A stretch of DNA of 64,000 nt from Polytrichum commune. Taxonomy: Eukaryota > Streptophyta > Polytrichopsida > Polytrichales > Polytrichaceae. Where the stretch lies: NCBI GenBank assembly GCA_950295325.1, contig OX485804.1, forward strand, positions 52,018,001 through 52,082,000, written 5' to 3'. This document shows positions 4,701 through 57,290 of the stretch, one piece after another; position 1 is the first letter of the stretch, and each line of letters begins with the position of its first letter. The position numbers and the translations under genes were made by a program. The notes below the pieces were generated by a model that made no database searches, had not been told where the DNA came from, and was given only the letters and a program-made list of their open reading frames with translations.

Positions 4701-7700
4701 TCATTGAAATGCATACACTAGATTTAGGTACTGCAAGACAAATTTCAATATCAAGTGACACCAAGTGAGAAAACATCTTATGCATGGTCATTCAGGACAT
4801 GAAGGTACTCATCCTGCATACTGATTAGCAAATCAACATAGGTCAACAATCAGATTCTGAGTATTTTTCCATGCAGAGGTTGTAACTTTTTGCTTCAGTG
4901 TAATGTACAAACATTTGAACATGACACGCAAACTTATGCCTGATAGACATACAATGATTGTCATTGTACCTGGCGGGCAAAACGACGGCTTGTTTTTGTC
5001 GAGTACTCAAGAGAGCAACTTCGTTTACAAAACAGGTCCTCAAAAGACTCAGGCTTCTTGGATCTGTACCCTCTGAAAATCAGAACAGTTTTCTGTCAGC
5101 ATTGAACTTCTAATTGATTTTCTCAGTTGGAATGTATATACGCATGAAGATCACAAATCAGAACGATCTCATTTCTAATCAAAATAGCCCTTCAATTAAC
5201 CCACCATTCAATATGAGTTCATGAGGTGAATACTACATAGACTACATTGGAAGTCATTAGTAACTGAGATGGTACCTCAACAGTATCTCAAATACTTATT
5301 CGTACAAGACATTTGAATTGCAGATAATTTCTTTTTTACTTTATACAAAAGTTAACATTAAATTGGACATTGAATCTTACTCGCATGGGTGCTGACAGAA
5401 TTTGCAAAGAGGGTTACCCTCCGCATTCCATGCTTGTATGACGTGGCTCTCTTTCAAACCAGCCCGTTTGTGAAAGGAGACAGATTTCCATGTTGCACCT
5501 TCTGGAGGTGCACAACCAGCTTCCTCTTTGGGAGTATGTCGCCGCTTGCTCCCACCTTTGATGATTCCCTGCACATATCACAGTTTTTTGGTCATGCGAA
5601 AGTAGCATGACCTCCATCTTCTAATATGTGCATCGTTCAGCAAAGAGACAAATGTGGCTACTTCAAGAACTTACAAGAGATCTCTGATTTGGTCCTTCCC
5701 ATGTTTCAACCACCTGCAGTGTTTCAGTGACTTGGAGTGATTTGTTTTAAGGTGCGCTTGCACACAACCACCGATTCAGTGGTTGGTGGTTGCAGTTAAC
5801 TTTCTTTGGCTCTATTTTTGAGGAATAAGGTAGGATAACCAGAATTAGGTGACAACTACAACTACAACTACAACCGCAACTACGCTAACTTGCTCAACTA
5901 CAATACCAGGTGTAGTTAGGATTGATGTTACGATGGTTGTAGTTTACTTTCTTTGGTTCTCTTTTGTTTGTCCTTACGATGTGGTACCTTCAAGGCCAAA
6001 GCATGGGGAGAGGATTTTTAGGTAGCCATTACTCTTGGACAAACTTCCCACTAGAATCCAAAAATCGTTTGTCTCCACTCCAAGGATATAATCAATATGA
6101 GGGATGATCATTCAGGTCAAATCTCCAGTTCAACTACAAGGGTAGTTGTGTGTAGACGAAAAAGAATCTTAGTTGTGGTTAAAGGGGGGCCCGAACCCCG
6201 ATTCAACCACTGTGGTGATTGTGTGTAAAGGCATTTAGTGACAGGTTTTATGAAAAGAAATTCATAATCCCTTTCAATTCCTGTGAGTAACTTCTCATAT
6301 GGCTACTTTGCAAAGGATAGCATAGGAAGTATATATTGAGTACTTGCACATTTCCACGTTCATTATAGTAGACAAACATACCCCTGGACCATATTGTGCA
6401 TCCATTTTGAGGCAGCTTAGCTCCGCCGACAATGGCAGCAAGAGAGGCCGCCCAAGAAGCCGTGTACGAAATATAGGTCGCAACTCCATCCATTGCTCCC
6501 AAAAGGAAGTGGCTGCATCTCTGTGAACAATGCTGTCGACCAAACAATTAGGCAGAGCGCCTCGTTCACGACTCCCGGATTCTTTGAAATGTGCCAAGTC
6601 CTCAGGTTTGAAATTTTCCTGCAGTGATATGGGCTGGCTTGTGCCATCTGCCGAATTGAGAAATAAGTGAATTCGGCCTGTGTTGCGGCTTACCTATCCC
6701 CAGAAAGTACATAAACAGGTCATTAAGAAATGAGTATTTATAAATTAACGAGAAACCCAACTTTCCAGAGTGTAGTTTCTTCACCAGCTCATCAAGACGG
6801 TGCTCAACAAGGTATGGATATAGGTAATAAGGATACAACAAATCATTATTTCTCGAATTTTATCAATTACCTCAAACATCAAGCAATGTGCAGGAAACGT
6901 CACACTTGAAACTCCTTCCCTATCAGCCCTATCTTCATTACAAAATGTTCTTGATGTGCACCGTGTAACGCTATCAGGAACATGGTTCACTTCACTGGAT
7001 GATACCCCTTCGCATGTATCAGAAGTTATGCATGAGTCTTCAGAGGAACAGTCTATAGTAGTTTCCATACTTCTTGTGCAAGTATTGTCCTTGGAATGCA
7101 TGGGCACCCTTGTCTCAACTTGCATGTGTGGCTTTGTGATATCAATAACGGAATCGACCTGCATGATAATAGGAATTTGTTAAGTGAAAGACAAGGGTTC
7201 TTCTGCATCTAAGAGCCTGTAGATGTCAAGATGTCAACTTCGTAATTGCACAGAGAGATACATCACAAACTTCCTTAGGCAAATGCATCATGTACAAACA
7301 TTAAAATGTTAAAATGACATAACACATTCCTCATTAATATATTGTAATTGTATGATTTCCTTATTTTCTTCTACTATATGCCACATTCTGTTACTACAAA
7401 GCAATGTTACATAAAATGTTACATAAAATGATTCAATGTAATATAAGATAATTGCATTATACACCACTATGTACAATTCTAAACGTAATAAACTACATAG
7501 TACATGCCTATACATGTGTATACCTCCAGGGATGTCTCAACACCATCGGTCATAGTTGACACCCGCTCCAAGCTCCTTCTCAAAGACTGCCAATGTGCCT
7601 CATCTGTTGTTTCCTGTTCCATGATTGACAGAGATGCTGACTTCAAATTGTTTATTTTTAGTTCTAAGAATGTCAACAGTAGCCATACGAATAGCAATGT

Positions 7701-10700: not shown

Positions 10701-13700
10701 CAACCCTCTTTACAGTCTCTGCAAGCTCAAGCACTGCCTCAGTCTGCAGTAAAAACACCACAATTCTTAGGTTCATTGTGTGAGCCTAAATTGGAGCATC
10801 CATACACAACCATTGAGGACAGCTTGTAACTGAAATCATCATGCCTTTTCAATTTTGTTCCAACATTTTCTTACATCAACAGCGAAACAGATACATACCT
10901 CCTCACACTCGGCCTTTTTCATAGTGCAACGTAGATTATGAGACTCATCCACAATCAGCATTCCCCACTTGTGAGACACCATACTTCGGCGCAGCCGTGC
11001 TAGCATGAAATAAGAGATCACAACTACCTGGGGTGGTTGTATATTCTGTACCAAATCGTTTTTCCGACCAAACACTGGCAAGCAACCAAATTAGTAAATT
11101 ATTAGTTGATGATATCAACTGCCCTATACCCTCATCTGTATTTCGTAACCAAGGAGTTTTCAAAGTCCCAATGTCTTAACCCTCTCGTATCCAAGTAACA
11201 ATCAACTAGAGCTTTGTCTGTTCTGTAGGATGTAAGCTCAACAGATGTAAGCTCTTCTGTTGCCACCGTCTATTACCACCTCTCATGGATTTGGTAGATG
11301 CATAATAGAAGTCCATCAGAATAAGGACAGTGGTTACATGTCTCTTGTTAAGTATTTCCACAACCCCCTCTAATAATGGAATCAGGGGTAAGCAAACAAC
11401 TGCCGGATGTCAAACCCCTTGTTTAGCAGGATAACATGTCAACTGCAATAAATGACCATGTAATTGTTCTTGCGTACTGATAGTGGCCTATAGAATCATC
11501 CCCCAACAAAATTTGTTTATCTGCTCGGGGTCAAAGCCTTCTTACCTATTTTTGGTCACCAACCTCTTTTGAAAAGTACTAGACAAGGTTTAACCTGCAC
11601 ACATTGGTTATCCACAACACTGAAAGTGCGTTTCCACACACTCAGGTGATTGAGGTGGACTTTCTCCCCACCTTCAATGACAGCTACGATTTTTTACATT
11701 CATACACAACTACTCTTGGAGTTGAGTATATTTGACCTCAACGATTGCCCCTCCTATTGGTGCAGTCCGTGGAGTGGAGACAAATCATTTATGGACTGAA
11801 GTGGAAAGTTTGTTCAAGAGGAATAGCCTCTTAAAACTCCTCTCCCATGCTTTGGTCTTGATGTTCTCTCCCAGTGTCACACAGTGACTACAAAGAAAGT
11901 ATACTACAACCACTGCAACTACTCCCATCTACACCTTGTATCATAGTTGGGGCAAGGTGGAGTAGTGGTTGTGGTTGTCATCAATGCACTTTATCCCTCA
12001 TCATCCCTCAAAAATAAAGCCAGAGAAAGTACACTACAACCATCAACCATTGAATGTGTTCGTGTGTAAATGCACCTTGAATGTACACAGAGAGGACTGA
12101 GACAAAGAGAGGACTTACCAAGATGCACATCAAGTGGAGACAGGAACGGAAGCCAGCGCTCCAGCTCATCTGCCCAAACTAGGCGCATGCTGGCTGGACA
12201 CACCACTAGGAGGGGGCCTTCTTCTCTGTAACATGCTGCCATTGCAATTGCCTGAACATTTATCACCATTCCAAACACCCATGATTATAATCACATACTC
12301 ACAATTTTTGCAAATTGCAGTACCAATGACACAACAATCTTACAGACCTGAAGTTTAGTCAGTATTTAGCCACTTCAATCACCAGGTCACTGACCTGAAT
12401 GGTTTTCCCGACACCCATTTCATCAGCCAGGAGGCAACGTCCGCCTCGTTTCAGACTGTATTTGACACCCTCCTTCTGAAATGGTAAAAGATTCTCTTTC
12501 AAATGTAGTGGCAATTTCCGCAACAATTCCTCTGCCTCTGTGTCAGTGACCCCGCTTGGTGTGATTGGGACCCCATTTTCACTTGCTTTCATGGCCTTCT
12601 CTAATGGCATACGAGTAGGCCATGGCACTGGTTGATAAGTTACACCTTGCATGCTCTTCAGTAAATCTGTTAGCTTTTCATAGTCCTTCAAATTAAACAC
12701 TAGCCTCTGGTTTATGTGGTCCAAGTTCTCGCATGGTAAGACCTGGCCATGGAACACAAGAACAACAGCATGCAGAGTAAGTATACTGGGTGCTCAATTA
12801 GGCAGTACTTAAAACATTGACAACAGTAATGTACTTTCAGTAGTAGCCTACTGACAACAGTAGTAGCTATGAAGATTGTCCAATAGTGAGTCTGATTACC
12901 ATTTGTGTGAGTTGAAGATGCAATGAGAAAAGCCCAGATATTGCAACACACAGCGTTAGAACAGCAGAGTGGCCCTGGTCTCAGTACCATATACACCAGG
13001 AAAAGGGAATTTGTTAAAAGTGTATAACTCTCTGAGGAATATATGGGGTTAAATAGAAGTATAATCTATTGCACACAAGTACTGGACCTTCTTCGTACAC
13101 AAAAAAATCCTCATAGAACTTAAAGTGCGTTTGGTGAGATCCTGTGGTATGAATAAGCTTAGAGCATCAGCAATCATCCACAGTAGAGTGTATTGGCTCT
13201 TTGACAGTCCCATTGGCAATATAGGAGAGATTGGAAAAAGAGTTGTTCTGAATGTATATATTTCTTGTTTAAATCGTAATCAATCCCGAAACGAAGACAC
13301 AGGGTCTTCTTCAACAGATCCTAACTCGATTGCATACTAATACAGGTTGAAGTGCAGGATTGAATTATGCAATTGCTGATCTACAGTATAACAGGTGTCG
13401 TCATCATCCTCATGGCAATGGCTATGGCAATGACAAGGCAATGCAAACAATAAGGAAATAATAAGGCTTTGCTCCAGTTTATGTCATGATCCAGTAACAA
13501 GATGAGTTCATCTTACACTGTAGGAACAGTGTCTTGGCAAAATACTTACAGATAAAACCGTCTCGAAGAAAGCTTGGTGATGGAATTGGTCCCCAATTAT
13601 GCCTTTCAGCATCACGGCAAATTGTGTTGGTTGGCATATTTCGAGGAGAACTTCGAGTGGCTTGCCTGAGGCCACTTCAAACCTTTTAACGCCATTCGTG

Positions 13701-50356: not shown

Positions 50357-53300
50357 TCACAAGATTGAGCACAAACTCCCAAGACCACAAAGCCCCCAAC
50401 AGCACCTGGCAGGGTAATCCTTGAGGTAAACTTGTCTGTCTAGGCCGACAATGAAGAACTTGAATGAGCTTTTGCCTTGGTTGACAGAGACGCGTGTCAC
50501 GGGAATCATATGCATCTGGTGACGTTCACAAATAATCCGAGCAGATGGGGGAACAGGATTCCTCTCCGCAATAACATCCGATGAAAGTTGTGTGAGCCCA
50601 TGAGAATGTGGAAAGCTTGCAGGTTGGCACTGGTACGATTCACTGCTGTACAACTGTACTCCTTTGGCTTCATGGAAGACTTCATCAGGAACTAAGCTAG
50701 CATTACTTGATGTGCTGATCTTCTTTGATTTCAGAGTTGTCCTGCCATTATCAAACAAATCCTCCAGTCTATGAGAAAAACCAAGCTTGACGGGTCTTAA
50801 AGATGTGTTTAGTGTGAAAAGACTAGCAAATTCAAATCAAGGTCATAGCTATTTTCCTCATACATTTTTGGAGCTCATATCAATATCTTATTTCGTTGTG
50901 AAAATGAGGATTCTCTTTCTTCTTAGATGATCATATAGATCCCCCAAGTTATGTTGACTATTGAACCTAGAATAGTTTACAAATTTCAGCATGTAGTTCA
51001 ATCCTTTTTCAGATGTCTCTTCTGGTATTGTTCTCAGATCCACACCTAAAGCACACACCACTCAAATATAGGTGTCTGAATAAGATAAGTAACCGAATTA
51101 GACACCCTTACCTTACCTTATCTTAAGCATGATGTGAAACCCCATCCACCAAACCTGCAATCTATGTTTCTTCTCTGATTCAGAGAGGCACAATGTACTT
51201 GCATACTGCAGAAAAGAAAGAAAGACAACTCTAATGTTGCCATTGCCGTATTTTATGGTGGTGCTTCATTTTCGAATCAGTATAAGTCTATATGTAATCA
51301 CAAAATGGGCATTACAAAAATTACATTGCCTCCTTTCGAAAGTGAACACCTTGAACGAGCACGAACAAGCCAACTGGCACTTATCTCCCCCAAGAGCAAG
51401 CCCCTAGCTTCCCACATGGTTGGTTGAAAATATTTGGTTTACCCAAATACCCCCACTATGATTGGATGGTAGTGTGCACTGGAAATCAAGTGCTAGGAAG
51501 GTCACCCATCTGAGTACCATTCCGACCTTAGGTGGCTTAACCTCAAGAGTTCTCATGGGATCTGGGTAAGGCCTTAGGTTAAAGCCACCCTTTTACATAA
51601 TGCATACAAACTACAGAGGATCACAGGAAAACCTTACCATGTGACAATGAGATCCTTGCCCTCCAGCAAGGCACCTGAACCTTCACATTTACCACACCAA
51701 ATAAGGCCCCGAGAGTTGCATTTTGCACATGGTAACTGCCCTTTTCCTTGGCACTGACCACACCTGCAGTGAAACCACTTGTAAGCTTATACTGACTTCA
51801 CCTAACAAGATTCCTGCAAAACATGAAGAAAGCAAAGTCTTACGAAGAATAGTAGTCCCACTCAGACTGGTCAACCTTGTTGATTGTGTCACCTATTGCT
51901 ATGAAGCTGGTAACAAAGATAACACATGAGGTTTGAAGTACTCGTCTATCAGGTCAACAAAAGTCTTTTGCTACCGTATACTAGGGCTATCCTTCAACTC
52001 GATGGGACTTTTTGTCAGGATTTGGGACCCTTCGATTTTGAATTGGTTGTTATTATACAAAATCTATAGTTTTTTTCCACTTGTGGTGCATGCTTTGGAG
52101 GTAGTGTTTGAAGTTGAATGAAGAGCAACCTATTTCAGTTCATTGAGTACCAAACTCATAGCACCTCTTGACGCGCCAAACTGAGTTTGACCCTCAATGA
52201 CCAATATAGGTTGTTCTTCATTCGAACCTCCACACTACCTCAAGCATGCACCAAAAACTTACAAACATGGAAGGTTTTGTATGGAAAAGCAACGAACTCC
52301 CGACCAAAAGTTATTTGGAGTTAGAGGATAACTCTACTGATTGAAATAATCAAGGACAATTGCAAGATATTCATTTTAAAATCACATGTCGAAGCAGATG
52401 GAAGGTTTAGGAAAGCTTCCAATAGTCAATGAAGGAGAAATATCATCATATGTACAGTATGAGAAATGGCGTAGATGGAGTACTTTGTATCAGAGCCATC
52501 TTGATGAGCAAGAAGGCCACGACCATGGCACCGAGAACATTCCGTAGTTTGACCAGATACATAAGAATTTGCATCCTTGCTTTTGTTGCACAAGGGACAG
52601 ACTACTTCCTTCCGTCCAACACAATCTGCAAATTGAGAATTTATGTAAGAAGCAACAGGGCAGCAACATTCTAGGATCACTTAAGTCAAATTGATTTGCC
52701 ACTCCTTTACTAGTATACAACTTTCATACACAAATATAAAATCTTTCTAGAGCAACTATTAAAGCAACCTGGGAATGGGATAATTGATTCTACCTAAGCA
52801 ATTGTAGAACAAAAAGGAACTCACTGAACCTAAACAAGGCTGCACTGCAGTATAAGAGTCTCTAGATTTTCCAAACAAATGGCATGCAATCCTTGTGCTT
52901 TATGAACTGGGTACTGGGTGCCTACTACAACCGATGGGAGACCAAGAAATGTACATTTGCAGATGTAGTGATCAGGCATGATAAAGTCATCAATTACAGG
53001 TGATAATAATGTGCCTCCTCATATCCAATCAGGAATAGACACTTCAACAAAATCACTTGGCCTGACCACTACGTAATTTGTTCCTTCGCAAATTTCATGT
53101 TGATCAAAACAACAATATCAGATTTCAAGGTCTTCAACTAGGAATCACACAAACTACTCGTTGAAAGTGTTGGTACCTGAACACCTTTGGACTGACTCTG
53201 AATGAGGTACTTTCAGACGAGCCTCTTTCTTCAGAGTAAACAGCAAAGGAAACTCATGCCTCATATCTATTTCCCATGGGCCTTGTTGGCGCTGCCCACT

Positions 53301-55291
53301 GCCTTCATCATCAACTGGGCCTCCAGAATAAGACTTAACATTATTATTCACCACTCGCGTCTCGATGAAAGTCTCAAGAGTGCCAATGTAAACATTACAA
53401 TCTTCCACCTTCCCGATAGGCCACTCATGAGCTGGTCGTCCACCCCAACAGCCTTGCTTTCCCACATAGTCTGTTAGAATCTCTCGAATTTCTTCCTCAG
53501 TTAACCACTGCTCACTGCTATTTGCCACCACAACACCAAATAATTCAGCTAATGGCTTCAATCAACACTAAGGTAGACGAGCCTAGTTTGGTTGCTCCCA
53601 GAATGTTTGGCCTCTTCTGATGTGCAATAAATTACAACAAAAATCCAATTGATTTGCAAATCTTGTACGAATCGAAGGCTATAAGAATGAGATCAAGGTG
53701 ACAAATGTCAATTTGTGATGATGTGGGACTCATGTGTGGCAACTGTTCAAGCAATCCCTTACCTAGGTGCCCCTTCCACTTTCTGTTGATTACCTTGCAA
53801 ATCACCTGGTTGTTGATCTGCATACAAAAGCAACAAGTGATCCAATCACTACACATGCAAACCATAATTATAGTTCCAAGCCCACCCATCTCAAGCACTC
53901 CAAGCACCTCATAACATTTCTGTTCAAGTTGGATTACATTGAGACCAGAAAGTAGGGTCAGACACCCAATGGATAACAAGCTCGATGATAGGGGAGAGGC
54001 ATAAGGACCAAGTGGAAGCCATCACAAGCCAATCACATCGGATATTTACTGCACATGTATACAATGGCAAAACAGCCAACTCTAGAAGATAATAGAGTTG
54101 TCCACTAACTCAATGGGACTTTTTGTCAGGCGTTGGTCCCCTATGATATCCCATTGGTTGTTTTGCATACAAAACCAATAAATCTTTCCTCTTGCGGTGC
54201 ATGCTCAGAGGTGTTGTTGGCATTTCAATAAAGAGCAGAAAATTTTAGTTCATTGAGGGCCAAACTCATTTTAGCACCTATTACCATGCCTAAAATTGAC
54301 CCTCAATGAACCAAAATAGAATACTCTTCGTCCAAATCCCCACACTACCTCCAAGCATACAGCAGAAACTTACCAAACATCAAAGGTGCTGTATGCAAAC
54401 AACCAATTCCCAACCAAAAGTGCCGTTGGGTTACAGGATACTCTTATGTAGGATGAACATACTCACCTAAATGCTCAGGAGACTATTTGTTTTATGTATG
54501 TGAAAGAGTGCTCACTGGATATTGAAGTTCACATGATGACTGGAGAACATTCAATAATAGTACATTCTATTCAATTCAAATATTCATGGTGAACAGATTG
54601 TGGTTGGGACCCGCTATTAACCACAACTAAAAAAAAATGGATTACAACAACTACTCTTGTAGTTGATGAGTGCATTTGACCTCAACAATTGTCCTTCCTA
54701 TTGGTGCAATCCATGGAGTGGAGACAAACAATTTATGGATTCTAGTGGAAATTTTGTCTAAGAGTAACTGCCTCCTACAAACCCTCTCCCATACTTTGGC
54801 CTTGAAGTTCTCTCTCGGTGTCAAATAGTGACTACAAACAAAATGGAGCCAAAGTAACTAGAACCATCACAACTACTCCCAACTACACCTTGTATCGTAG
54901 TTGGGCAAGTAAGAATAGTTGTGGTTGTGATGGTTGTCATCATTGCACATTTTCCTTCCTTATCTCTCAAAAATAGAACCAAATTAAAAGTAACCTGCAA
55001 CCATCAATCACCAAAACGGTGGTTGTGTTTAAACACACCTTGAGATGCCTGGGTGACACTGTGAGTGGAAGCTTCAGGGCTGACAAGTGCACCATAAATC
55101 CACTGCGGGTAAGGGTCTTGTGATGATGATGCCGCCGCACGAATCTCGTTCACTGTTGCCAATGAGGCAGATTCAAGAGGTGGCACACTGGGTGGTGTGT
55201 GTGACCCTCCTCCTCCCCCACCAGTTGCGTATTGGCCCTCAGCCCATTCACTCAACTGCCCTTCCCCCTCTTCTGTAGTCCAGATAATCAT
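50357..55291 (-). CDS. SSUH2: SSUH2-like cysteine-rich zinc-ribbon protein
   Basis: Exons: 55291-55039, 53817-53763, 53517-53177, 52625-52484, 51763-51638, 51205-51155, 50768-50357. They sum to 1380 nt (459 aa) and every junction keeps phase. Centre: YVGKQGCWGGRPAHEW then DCVGRKEVVCPLC and a DnaJ-like run of CxxC pairs (226/229, 246/249, 265/268, 276/279, 287/290) with CxGxG spacing, as in the DnaJ zinc-ribbon. C-terminal part: RHQMHMIPVTRV and the hallmark DYPARCC...CSIL ending. The family's biochemical role is not established; a human member is linked to tooth development. Exon 1 is Gly/Ser-rich and not conserved-looking. Exon 6 (51 nt) places Cys where Trp is usual after LIVT, so that junction is the weakest. 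The exon 1 donor lies in a MITE end. A second copy of the exon-1 start lies upstream. Confidence 0.9.
50800..51118 (-). mobile_element. Inverted-repeat element, family D copy 3 (diverged)
   Basis: On the minus strand it starts AAGGTAAGGGTGTCTAATTC and continues ACACCTATATTTGAGTGGTG and TGAGAACAAT, matching 42946-43333. The far end is worn, so 50800 is approximate. Lies in the last SSUH2-like intron. Confidence 0.6.
51484..51575 (-). pseudogene. 5S rRNA-like sequence (pseudogene or 5S-derived SINE)
   Basis: On the minus strand the order of 5S landmarks is kept: AGATCCCATGAGAACTC, then GAGGTTAAGC (the internal A box in 5S is AGTTAAGC), then GGTACTCAGATGGGTGACC (the C box in 5S is GGATGGGTGACC) and CTTCCTAG. 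Spacing agrees with plant 5S rRNA. The first roughly 25 bases of 5S are not recognisable and several stem bases differ, so it is not a working rRNA gene. It lies in intron 5 of the SSUH2-like gene, in the same orientation. Confidence 0.8.
51996..52323. mobile_element. Foldback element, family B copy 2
   Basis: Left arm AACTCGATGGGACTTTTTGT, centre around 52160, right arm ending TTGGAGTTA. GCATGCTTTGGAGGTAGTG on the left pairs with CACTACCTCAAGCATGC on the right. In the intron between SSUH2-like exons 4 and 5. Confidence 0.8.
54106..54432. mobile_element. Foldback element, family B copy 3
   Basis: Starts TAACTCAATGGGACTTTTTG and ends CGTTGGGTTA. TTCATTGAGGGCCAA on the left pairs with TTGACCCTCAATGAA on the right. 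In SSUH2-like intron 1. Confidence 0.8.
54603..55041 (-). mobile_element. Family A element copy 3, supplying a splice donor
   Basis: On the minus strand it begins AAGGTGTGTTTAAACACAAC, the same end as the copy at 5749. Exon 1 of the SSUH2-like gene ends at 55039, so its last bases and the GTGTGT donor are the element's terminal sequence. The far terminal repeat is worn away. The interior closely follows the other two copies. Confidence 0.8.
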
Positions 55292-55614
55292 CAACACAGG
55301 CACCCGTCAATTGTTTGTGGTCACTTGCAAGATTGAGGAATTCTTCGAAAATCCAAACAAAGATCACAACCCGATTAAACAATGTGCAGAACCCTTTGAA
55401 CTGTCTTCATAACATTACTAAGCCTTAGGATCGTGTATTAATCTACCAGTGTGACAGCTGCTATTTTGATGTAGGTGAAGAGTAAATGATGGCCAGTTAC
55501 ATGCAGTCGCAAGATTGCGTATTCCTTAGAAAACCAGAAAAGAAATTGAAAAAATAAAATAAAATCATAACCTGGTAGATATATGCGCAACCTAACATTC
55601 TAAGCCTTGAATTG

Positions 55615-55815
55615 ACCCTCAGCCCATTCACTCAACTGCCCTTCCCCTTCTTCTGTAGTCCACATAATCATCAACACAGGCGCCAGTCACCTATGATCGC
55701 TCGCAAAATTGCGGAATTTCTTAAAAAACCAAACAAAGATCACAACTAATGAAAAAATGCGCACACCTCTTAGAACTGTCATTGTAAAATTACTACCTAA
55801 GACTTGTGAGCTCGT
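55615..55815 (-). repeat. Duplicate of the SSUH2-like 5' end
   Basis: Copies 55205-55420 about 410 bp upstream: shared CCTCAGCCCATTCACTCAAC, CTTCTTCTGTAGTCCA.ATAAT and CCAAACAAAGATCACAAC. On the minus strand it keeps an ATG and a frame starting MIMWTTEEGEGQLSEW, as exon 1 does (MIIWTTEEG...), before diverging. Could be an alternative first exon or a relic. Confidence 0.75.
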
Positions 55816-56443: not shown

Positions 56444-57290
56444 GGGATAACACTAATGCCTCAAACCCTGACAAGCACAAGATTGGAATTCCCGCAGTTC
56501 AGCCACAAAACACATCATCACCGGACCAAAAAAAAATTAGAAATTTTGATGCAGCAGGCAAGCGTATGGTAAAACCCAGTGGGTATCGCAAGAGAAACAA
56601 AATTCCTGAGCTCCTCGGATCCAACCCCACAATGTCCAGCCTCCAAAAGCACCGACTACAGTAGACGCCTCTCCATTTCGAAGACAAATCATTCCATTCC
56701 CCCTCAACCTTTGCCACATGTCATTCCTACATTGGTTGAGACCTCCAGTTCAATCCCATGTAGAACCTGACAACCACGGATTCATCAAGACTCCACCCCC
56801 ATTTTGGAAACAAAATCTCCTCCAAAATGACCAACACCGACACAAGAAAACAGCAAATACTACAGCGGGCTGCGAGGATTCTGACGTGAAGAAATGGCGG
56901 GGCGAAACGCAGACAGATCCGGAGCTCCAGTTCCGATCACAGGGTATTGCACCGACCCTGGCAGCAACGGCTCCTTCTCCATGCTTACGTCACCGAAATG
57001 ATCTCAATTGCTCCAAAATCAATCCTCTCGAGTCTCCACTGCTGCTTGTGTTGATTCTGGAGCTGCTCCTCCTCCTCCTCCTCCTCCTGATGCTTCCTGT
57101 GAGTCACCTGCGGAAAAGGCTGGTCAGGCGAGGCGATTGCGAAATGTGATGATTCGCCATAGCCACGATGACAGCTGCAACTTGATCCTCTTTCCTGCTT
57201 GTGTTCGCTTTCTTCCTTCTTCCCTCCCTCCGCCTCCCTTCCTTCCTTCCTCCTTCCTACGATGATTGTCATCCCTTTATAATTTCATTC
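56444..57290 (-). promoter_or_regulatory. Likely distal leader and promoter region of the SSUH2-like gene
   Basis: Contains a (CTC)n tract at about 57063-57091 and, at 57190-57262, a long pyrimidine-rich stretch (CTTCCTTCC repeats; GGAAGGAA on the gene strand), the kind of sequence common in plant leaders. No TATA box was placed. Frames here are low-complexity. The assignment is by position only. Confidence 0.3.

Follow-up and report, generated by a model that had tools for sequence, protein, structure and literature searches.

A MITE has probably inserted at a TCA near the end of a predicted exon, and the spliceosome would now use the 5' splice site (donor) provided by the terminal repeat of the element. 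The window, i.e., the whole stretch of 64,000 nucleotides analyzed here, corresponds to C2:52018001-52082000 in a genome of 408 Mb, nearly all of it in seven large contigs. If true, this case would represent a route for silent splice-site turnover by transposons, as a DNA transposon could set exon edges harmlessly when its first four bases repeat the existing exon end; it would also supply a land-plant family in which to study the apparent absence of introners from this group. The features of the locus are the following:

56886..56982, minus strand: candidate earlier coding exon (MEKEPLLPGSVQYPVIG...), with a weak donor only
55039..55272, minus strand: predicted coding exon, abutting the element; its final two bases, AG, are element-derived
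55041..55043, minus strand: TCA, the upstream member of the 3-bp target duplication; its downstream counterpart is not identifiable
54603..55040, minus strand: MITE copy lacking its right end; where similarity persists, it differs by 13.2% from the consensus of 20 full copies
55019..55040, minus strand: 22-bp terminal inverted repeat, which starts AGGTGTG and contains the donor
55037..55038, minus strand: GT belonging to the predicted 5' splice site (AAG|GTGTGT), in phase 1, with a score of 4.71
53157..53548, minus strand: open reading frame of the predicted exon that follows, with acceptor ccattag|CTGAAT at 53549, phase 1; 3' border approximate
52486..52632, minus strand: Cys-rich predicted coding segment with anti-TRAP and DnaJ zinc-finger similarity, below curated cut-offs
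51637..51777, minus strand: another Cys-rich segment of this gene, also predicted to be coding

On the minus strand, the predicted exon ends as GGCATCTCAAG|GTGTGTTTAAACACAACCACC, and positions 55043-55031 read TCA-AG|GTGTGTTT, just as claimed in a preliminary description of this DNA, which had placed the border AAG|GTGTGT (55039/55038) inside the terminal repeat. The latter starts AGGTGYGTTTACACACAACCAC, directly inside the 3-bp TCA/TGA target duplication. The same description gave the element an extent of 54603-55041; a transposon copy is indeed present, with its start at 55040, since 3-bp duplications sit directly outside AGGTG in 27 of the 61 two-ended copies of the family, and the duplicated TCA occupies 55041-55043. 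Resemblance to the 20-copy consensus ends near 54600, short of the right terminal repeat, and the empty site is unreadable at this locus because the far end of the copy is lost. Further into the predicted intron, an inverted repeat at 54198-54361 (66-nt arms, 73% complementary, 32 nt apart) is possibly a second small foldback element.

Donors were scored with a plant weight matrix. The GT at 55038 reaches the 99.6th percentile among the 7236 GTs of both window strands and tops those of the exon, the next being 1.81 (55221) and -0.96 (55092); it also exceeds a helicase donor at 12118 (3.88), and is sixth, tied, among the 146 GT-bearing element ends, whose median is 2.90. Its phase is compatible with the acceptor at 53549, which has no clear pyrimidine tract; this agreement is given little weight, because phase 1 is shared by the upstream GTs at 55092 and 55221.

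The element family and its relatives

Besides this copy and one short piece, at least 39 places in the genome are 77-83% matches over most of the element's length (40 of 558 candidates scored), and the terminal 22-mer occurs 182 times with up to 2 mismatches, vs. 0 for a reversed-pattern control. The terminal repeat at both ends reads AGGTGCGTTTACACACAACCAC (23-copy alignment with flanks; 247 ends in 175 loci). GT is retained at 146/247 element ends, and an earlier count found AGGG at 50/207. The bases directly outside are TGA at 96 and TCA at 83 of the 247 ends; identical 3-bp duplications, 15 TCA and 12 TGA, account for the 27 two-ended copies mentioned above, vs. a mean of 16 and a maximum of 26 in 2000 re-pairings, and other duplication offsets or lengths matched in at most 3/61 copies. 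The 20 full copies measure 433-494 bp and lie 10.6-19.5% from their own consensus. The family is thus short and multi-copy, with terminal inverted repeats at both ends and a TCA or TGA target site duplication, as expected of MITEs. Four C1 copies (near 26.54, 28.11, 28.21, and 28.33 Mb) have common terminal variants AAAGTGYG..., and three of them also AAGATGCATTTACACAAAACC ~330 bp away, which suggests a local sub-family or a duplicated block.

Maize Ds, whose insertions are spliced as introns, likewise has donors close to its end; Ds belongs to the hAT superfamily and makes 8-bp duplications, unlike this family. A PIF/Harbinger Tourist-like MITE, with TWA duplication, was considered and discarded, none of the 27 identical duplications being TTA or TAA. 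PIF/Harbinger elements as described in Medicago (PMC2213677) have 3-bp duplications, a similar repeat length and a partial likeness in sequence (one family reads GGGKGYGTTTG...), but those duplications are TAA/TTA rather than TCA/TGA. The family resembles NuwaII, of the PHIS superfamily, in its TSA duplication and Y-R context, and is a candidate member only: the account of NuwaII (PMC4482050) includes 3-bp TNA duplications, a C|TNA|G-like target and a terminal repeat within 13-46 bp, whereas the repeat here starts with AGG instead of the GG of most NuwaII, no transposase is linked to it, and its flanks show a mere Y/R majority (Y|TSA|R in 22/27, C|TSA|G in 6/27). The genome holds a rich PIF/Harbinger-type population, with at least 150 DDE_Tnp_4 matches (150 of 990 candidates scored), many in frames of more than 500 codons. 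An autonomous NuwaII partner would encode a DDE transposase and a Myb/SANT protein; the transposase was sought with PF13359, and the terminal repeat was found at none of the eight DDE_Tnp_4 loci examined, the best match being 15/22.

Copies in other genes

A sister copy of 485 bp lies in a PEX12-like gene (C2:13041387-13041871, minus strand), with TGA on both sides. The exon ...RAALQMLVKVYPWVHMATE-G ends CTGAAG|GTGCGT within the element (donor score 3.76), and the acceptor gattaacag|GTGCATCATT, followed by ASFAYQLLYLLDATQFYTPALHFMRLQVRRSTGQEL, lies downstream, 1217 bases from that donor, so that the copy would form just the first part of a longer intron. Once joined, the exons match Pfam Pex2_Pex12 with 45.5 bits (E 1e-11, profile 84-168, cut-off 25.1), vs. 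11.5 and 21.4 bits (E 0.24 and 0.00023) for the pieces alone. Query residues 70-115 align with the solved Peroxin-12 structure (7t92_B), ungapped across the junction, with E 0.0023 for the whole sequence and 0.8 for that stretch alone. Four in-frame GT donors were tested (~120 bases either side), and that of the element alone joins the exons without residues lost or added. Because of the joined score, the ungapped alignment and the misfit of the other GTs, an exon of this conserved gene very probably ends inside the element. The flank past the element reads TGA-AG-ATGTGAAAG, one change from TGA-AG|GTGTGAAAG, and may represent the displaced native donor in its decayed form. Coding resumed just past the element had been considered as well; it reached only E 0.0063 with Pex2_Pex12 and was abandoned in favor of the downstream exon. 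Among the matches listed by a genome profile search with PF04757, only C7:32661350, which has internal stops, appears; the C2 gene, with exons that score low when taken singly, is absent.

Two further copies of the family are found in helicase introns of the window:

5750..6236, plus strand: family copy, right border approximate, with AAGGTGCG antisense to the helicase
11624..12077, minus strand: family copy, with a sense-strand terminal GT at 12075

The first (TTA on its left side, by eye) had been cited in the preliminary description, as the copy at 5749, to argue that the element carries a ready-made donor. In that form the argument is not supported, as AAGGTGCG is on the plus strand and the helicase on the minus strand, where the element end reads AAATGCCTTTACAC, with no GT. 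In the second copy, also referred to as the copy at 11667, a better-scoring donor, GTAAGTCC at 12118, precedes the sense-strand GT by 43 nt. A transposon-made exon boundary, as originally put forward, loses the support of the 5749 copy and keeps that of a donor placed in the terminal repeat, its top score among the local GTs, its phase, and a sister copy located where protein similarity sets an exon edge.

A third copy (C1:377756-378238) is flanked by ...GVVDAQAMLLE and LAQQPDGENLAGGTDAKVF... in a TPR-repeat gene, presumably SKI3/TTC37. The element shows AG|GTGGGT at a coding-exon edge and measures 486 bp together with its duplication; a single frame stays open in both flanks, and read-through into the element resembles that of the window locus. 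If AG|GTGGGT were joined to an acceptor ending at 378258 or 378276, the frame would be kept; with the one ending at 378242 it would be shifted. The copy may either split a coding exon or begin an older intron. A PDB search with the first TPR fragment gave nothing useful, and another TPR exon matched consensus, engineered or other repeat proteins (TOM70, IFT139) rather than SKI3.

Taking the window, PEX12-like and TPR copies together, a predicted coding exon ends at the donor of the element in at least 3 of the 175 sampled loci, a lower bound because the first 20 loci had only ~110 bp of flank. Such copies suggest that the family can probably take over exon edges. A first scan, in which the 60 longest frames from 163 loci were judged by eye, missed the PEX12-like copy, whose end has 17/22 matches, under the terminal-match threshold of 18. 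A second one took every GT-bearing end with at least 30 open codons (70 frames, 63 ends); four frames exceeded the control 95% level (0.075) of the coding score and none the 99% level (0.245), i.e., the PEX12-like (L129) and TPR (L001) copies, L195 (the same copy as L044), with no Pfam match, and the helicase exon w11667, with its native donor upstream. The copy at C2:322972-323493 is a possible fourth case: a 71-codon frame with an above-control coding score, and with no Pfam match, reaches its left donor.

The predicted exon and rival readings

The exon frame comprises 77 codons between an acceptor-like AG (55274-55273) and the junction; such a length says little by itself, because at least 89 open codons lie upstream of 14% of the minus-strand positions in the window. 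These codons score 0.077 vs. a control median of -0.318, a value equalled by 3.5% of the 451 control stretches, some of which may themselves be coding. The signal is weak, notably in the last part of the exon: the last 18 codons score -0.155, and the last 60, with a smaller training set, -0.036, under the control 95% level. The training set took in exons further along the window gene, and two of these have low scores once left out of it (0.022 and -0.112); the measure has therefore little power. The name SSUH2-like is tentative for this gene; Pfam/NCBIfam-type profiles, none of SSUH2 itself, gave only sub-threshold Cys-rich matches, in later exons. The status of "exon 1" assigned in the preliminary description is doubtful, given the acceptor-like CTGGACTACAG that precedes the exon and the possible earlier coding start at 56982. 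A PDB search with the window gene gave nothing useful, and the next exon has no Pfam or PDB match; paralogues sought in the genome returned the gene itself as sole match for the next exon, and for the exon at the element two extra matches (E 0.157 and 1.09), taken as chance.

This evidence bears on whether the sequence upstream of the element is a real exon of the gene at all; if it were not, there would be no boundary to explain. We consider this unlikely, even with the weak score in one of two coding tests, the glycine run within the exon and its lack of Pfam, NCBIfam or PDB matches. The start of the exon is also a tandem duplicate: a 79-bp direct repeat (94%; 55231-55309 and 55611-55689), accompanied by a weaker one (55318-55370 and 55694-55746), spans its acceptor and first codons. 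Against such a reading, the exon's own frame is the best of six, though one reverse frame is close (0.077 vs. 0.040), the frame starts at an acceptor-like site, and the phase matches. Granting the exon, the element could instead lie inside an existing intron, directly downstream from a weak native donor still in use (e.g., TATG|GTGCAC at 55092), its own AG|GT being idle. The helicase copy at 11667 does have a native donor just upstream, 55092 is in phase 1 as well, and the codons from there to the element do not score as coding; nonetheless, this arrangement seems rather unlikely, since the GTs from 55092 to the element score -0.96 or lower vs. 4.71, the frame is open as far as the element, and the PEX12-like copy has its donor at a confirmed exon edge. 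Lastly, the transcript might enter the element, where the frame runs on as GVFKHNHRFGD to a stop 11 codons in, as in the similar read-through at the TPR copy, and yield a short isoform or reflect a decayed gene; later segments of the gene are open over 120, 49, and 47 codons, and we hold this outcome to be very improbable.

Proposed mechanism and known systems

We infer, for the donor at 55038, that a non-autonomous DNA transposon of ~480 bp landed at TCA just ahead of the exon end. The start of its terminal repeat, AG|GTGYGT, would make a good 5' splice site, cut two bases inside the element; the exon would then end TCA-AG, and the element would become the intron start. In the likeliest history, the native exon ended TCA-AG|GT, the AGGT of the element replaced exon end and donor with the mRNA unchanged, and the old donor, displaced to the far side, was later lost. 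Insertion at a TNA before a native AG|GT would be silent because the first four bases of the element restore both exon end and donor; the repeats being inverted, a copy with intact ends shows TNA-AG|GT upstream on the sense strand in either orientation. Where the host reads TNAG instead, the far side would be CACCT-TNAG, and a cut at that point would lengthen the mRNA by one base, a possible explanation for the rarity of coding copies; TCAG is given by 8/27 duplications. Far flanks still read TNA-AGGT, candidate native donors, at 3 of the 191 TNA-flanked ends (L137, L036, and L006).

More tentatively, the family may practice a donor mimicry, AGGTGYGT and the TNA target together copying the consensus TNA-AG|GT; exon edges would be colonized in either orientation, old donors would decay, and exonic copies would start introns, as in an incipient land-plant introner. 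This generalization is possible, if doubtful. Introners among animals and land plants are described from two groups only, both animals, and from none in land plants, in PMC9860276. The family shares with them, as characterized there, a DNA-transposon-like nature, terminal repeats, target duplications and the ability to carry a 5' splice site, and differs in that the PEX12-like copy makes up no more than the beginning of its intron and that few sampled copies (3/175) touch coding exons. MITE-made splice sites in plants are already known, having been reported in mulberry (PMC6593561) and reviewed (PMC12595863). As in the cases outlined in that review, a short inverted-repeat element supplies splice-site sequence in a plant gene; here, in contrast, both terminal repeats contain the donor within their first four bases, and one copy very probably marks a conserved exon edge. 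No mention of silent donor replacement was seen in the literature consulted on the general subject of transposon-derived splice sites. Elsewhere in the genome, 58 chlorophyll a/b-binding protein matches were counted, along with two exon matches to AUX/IAA, a marker of plants, and the genome is on these grounds taken to be that of a land plant. Fourteen chlorophyll a/b-binding genes, of equal score, lie within 95 kb (C5:1751760-1846160).
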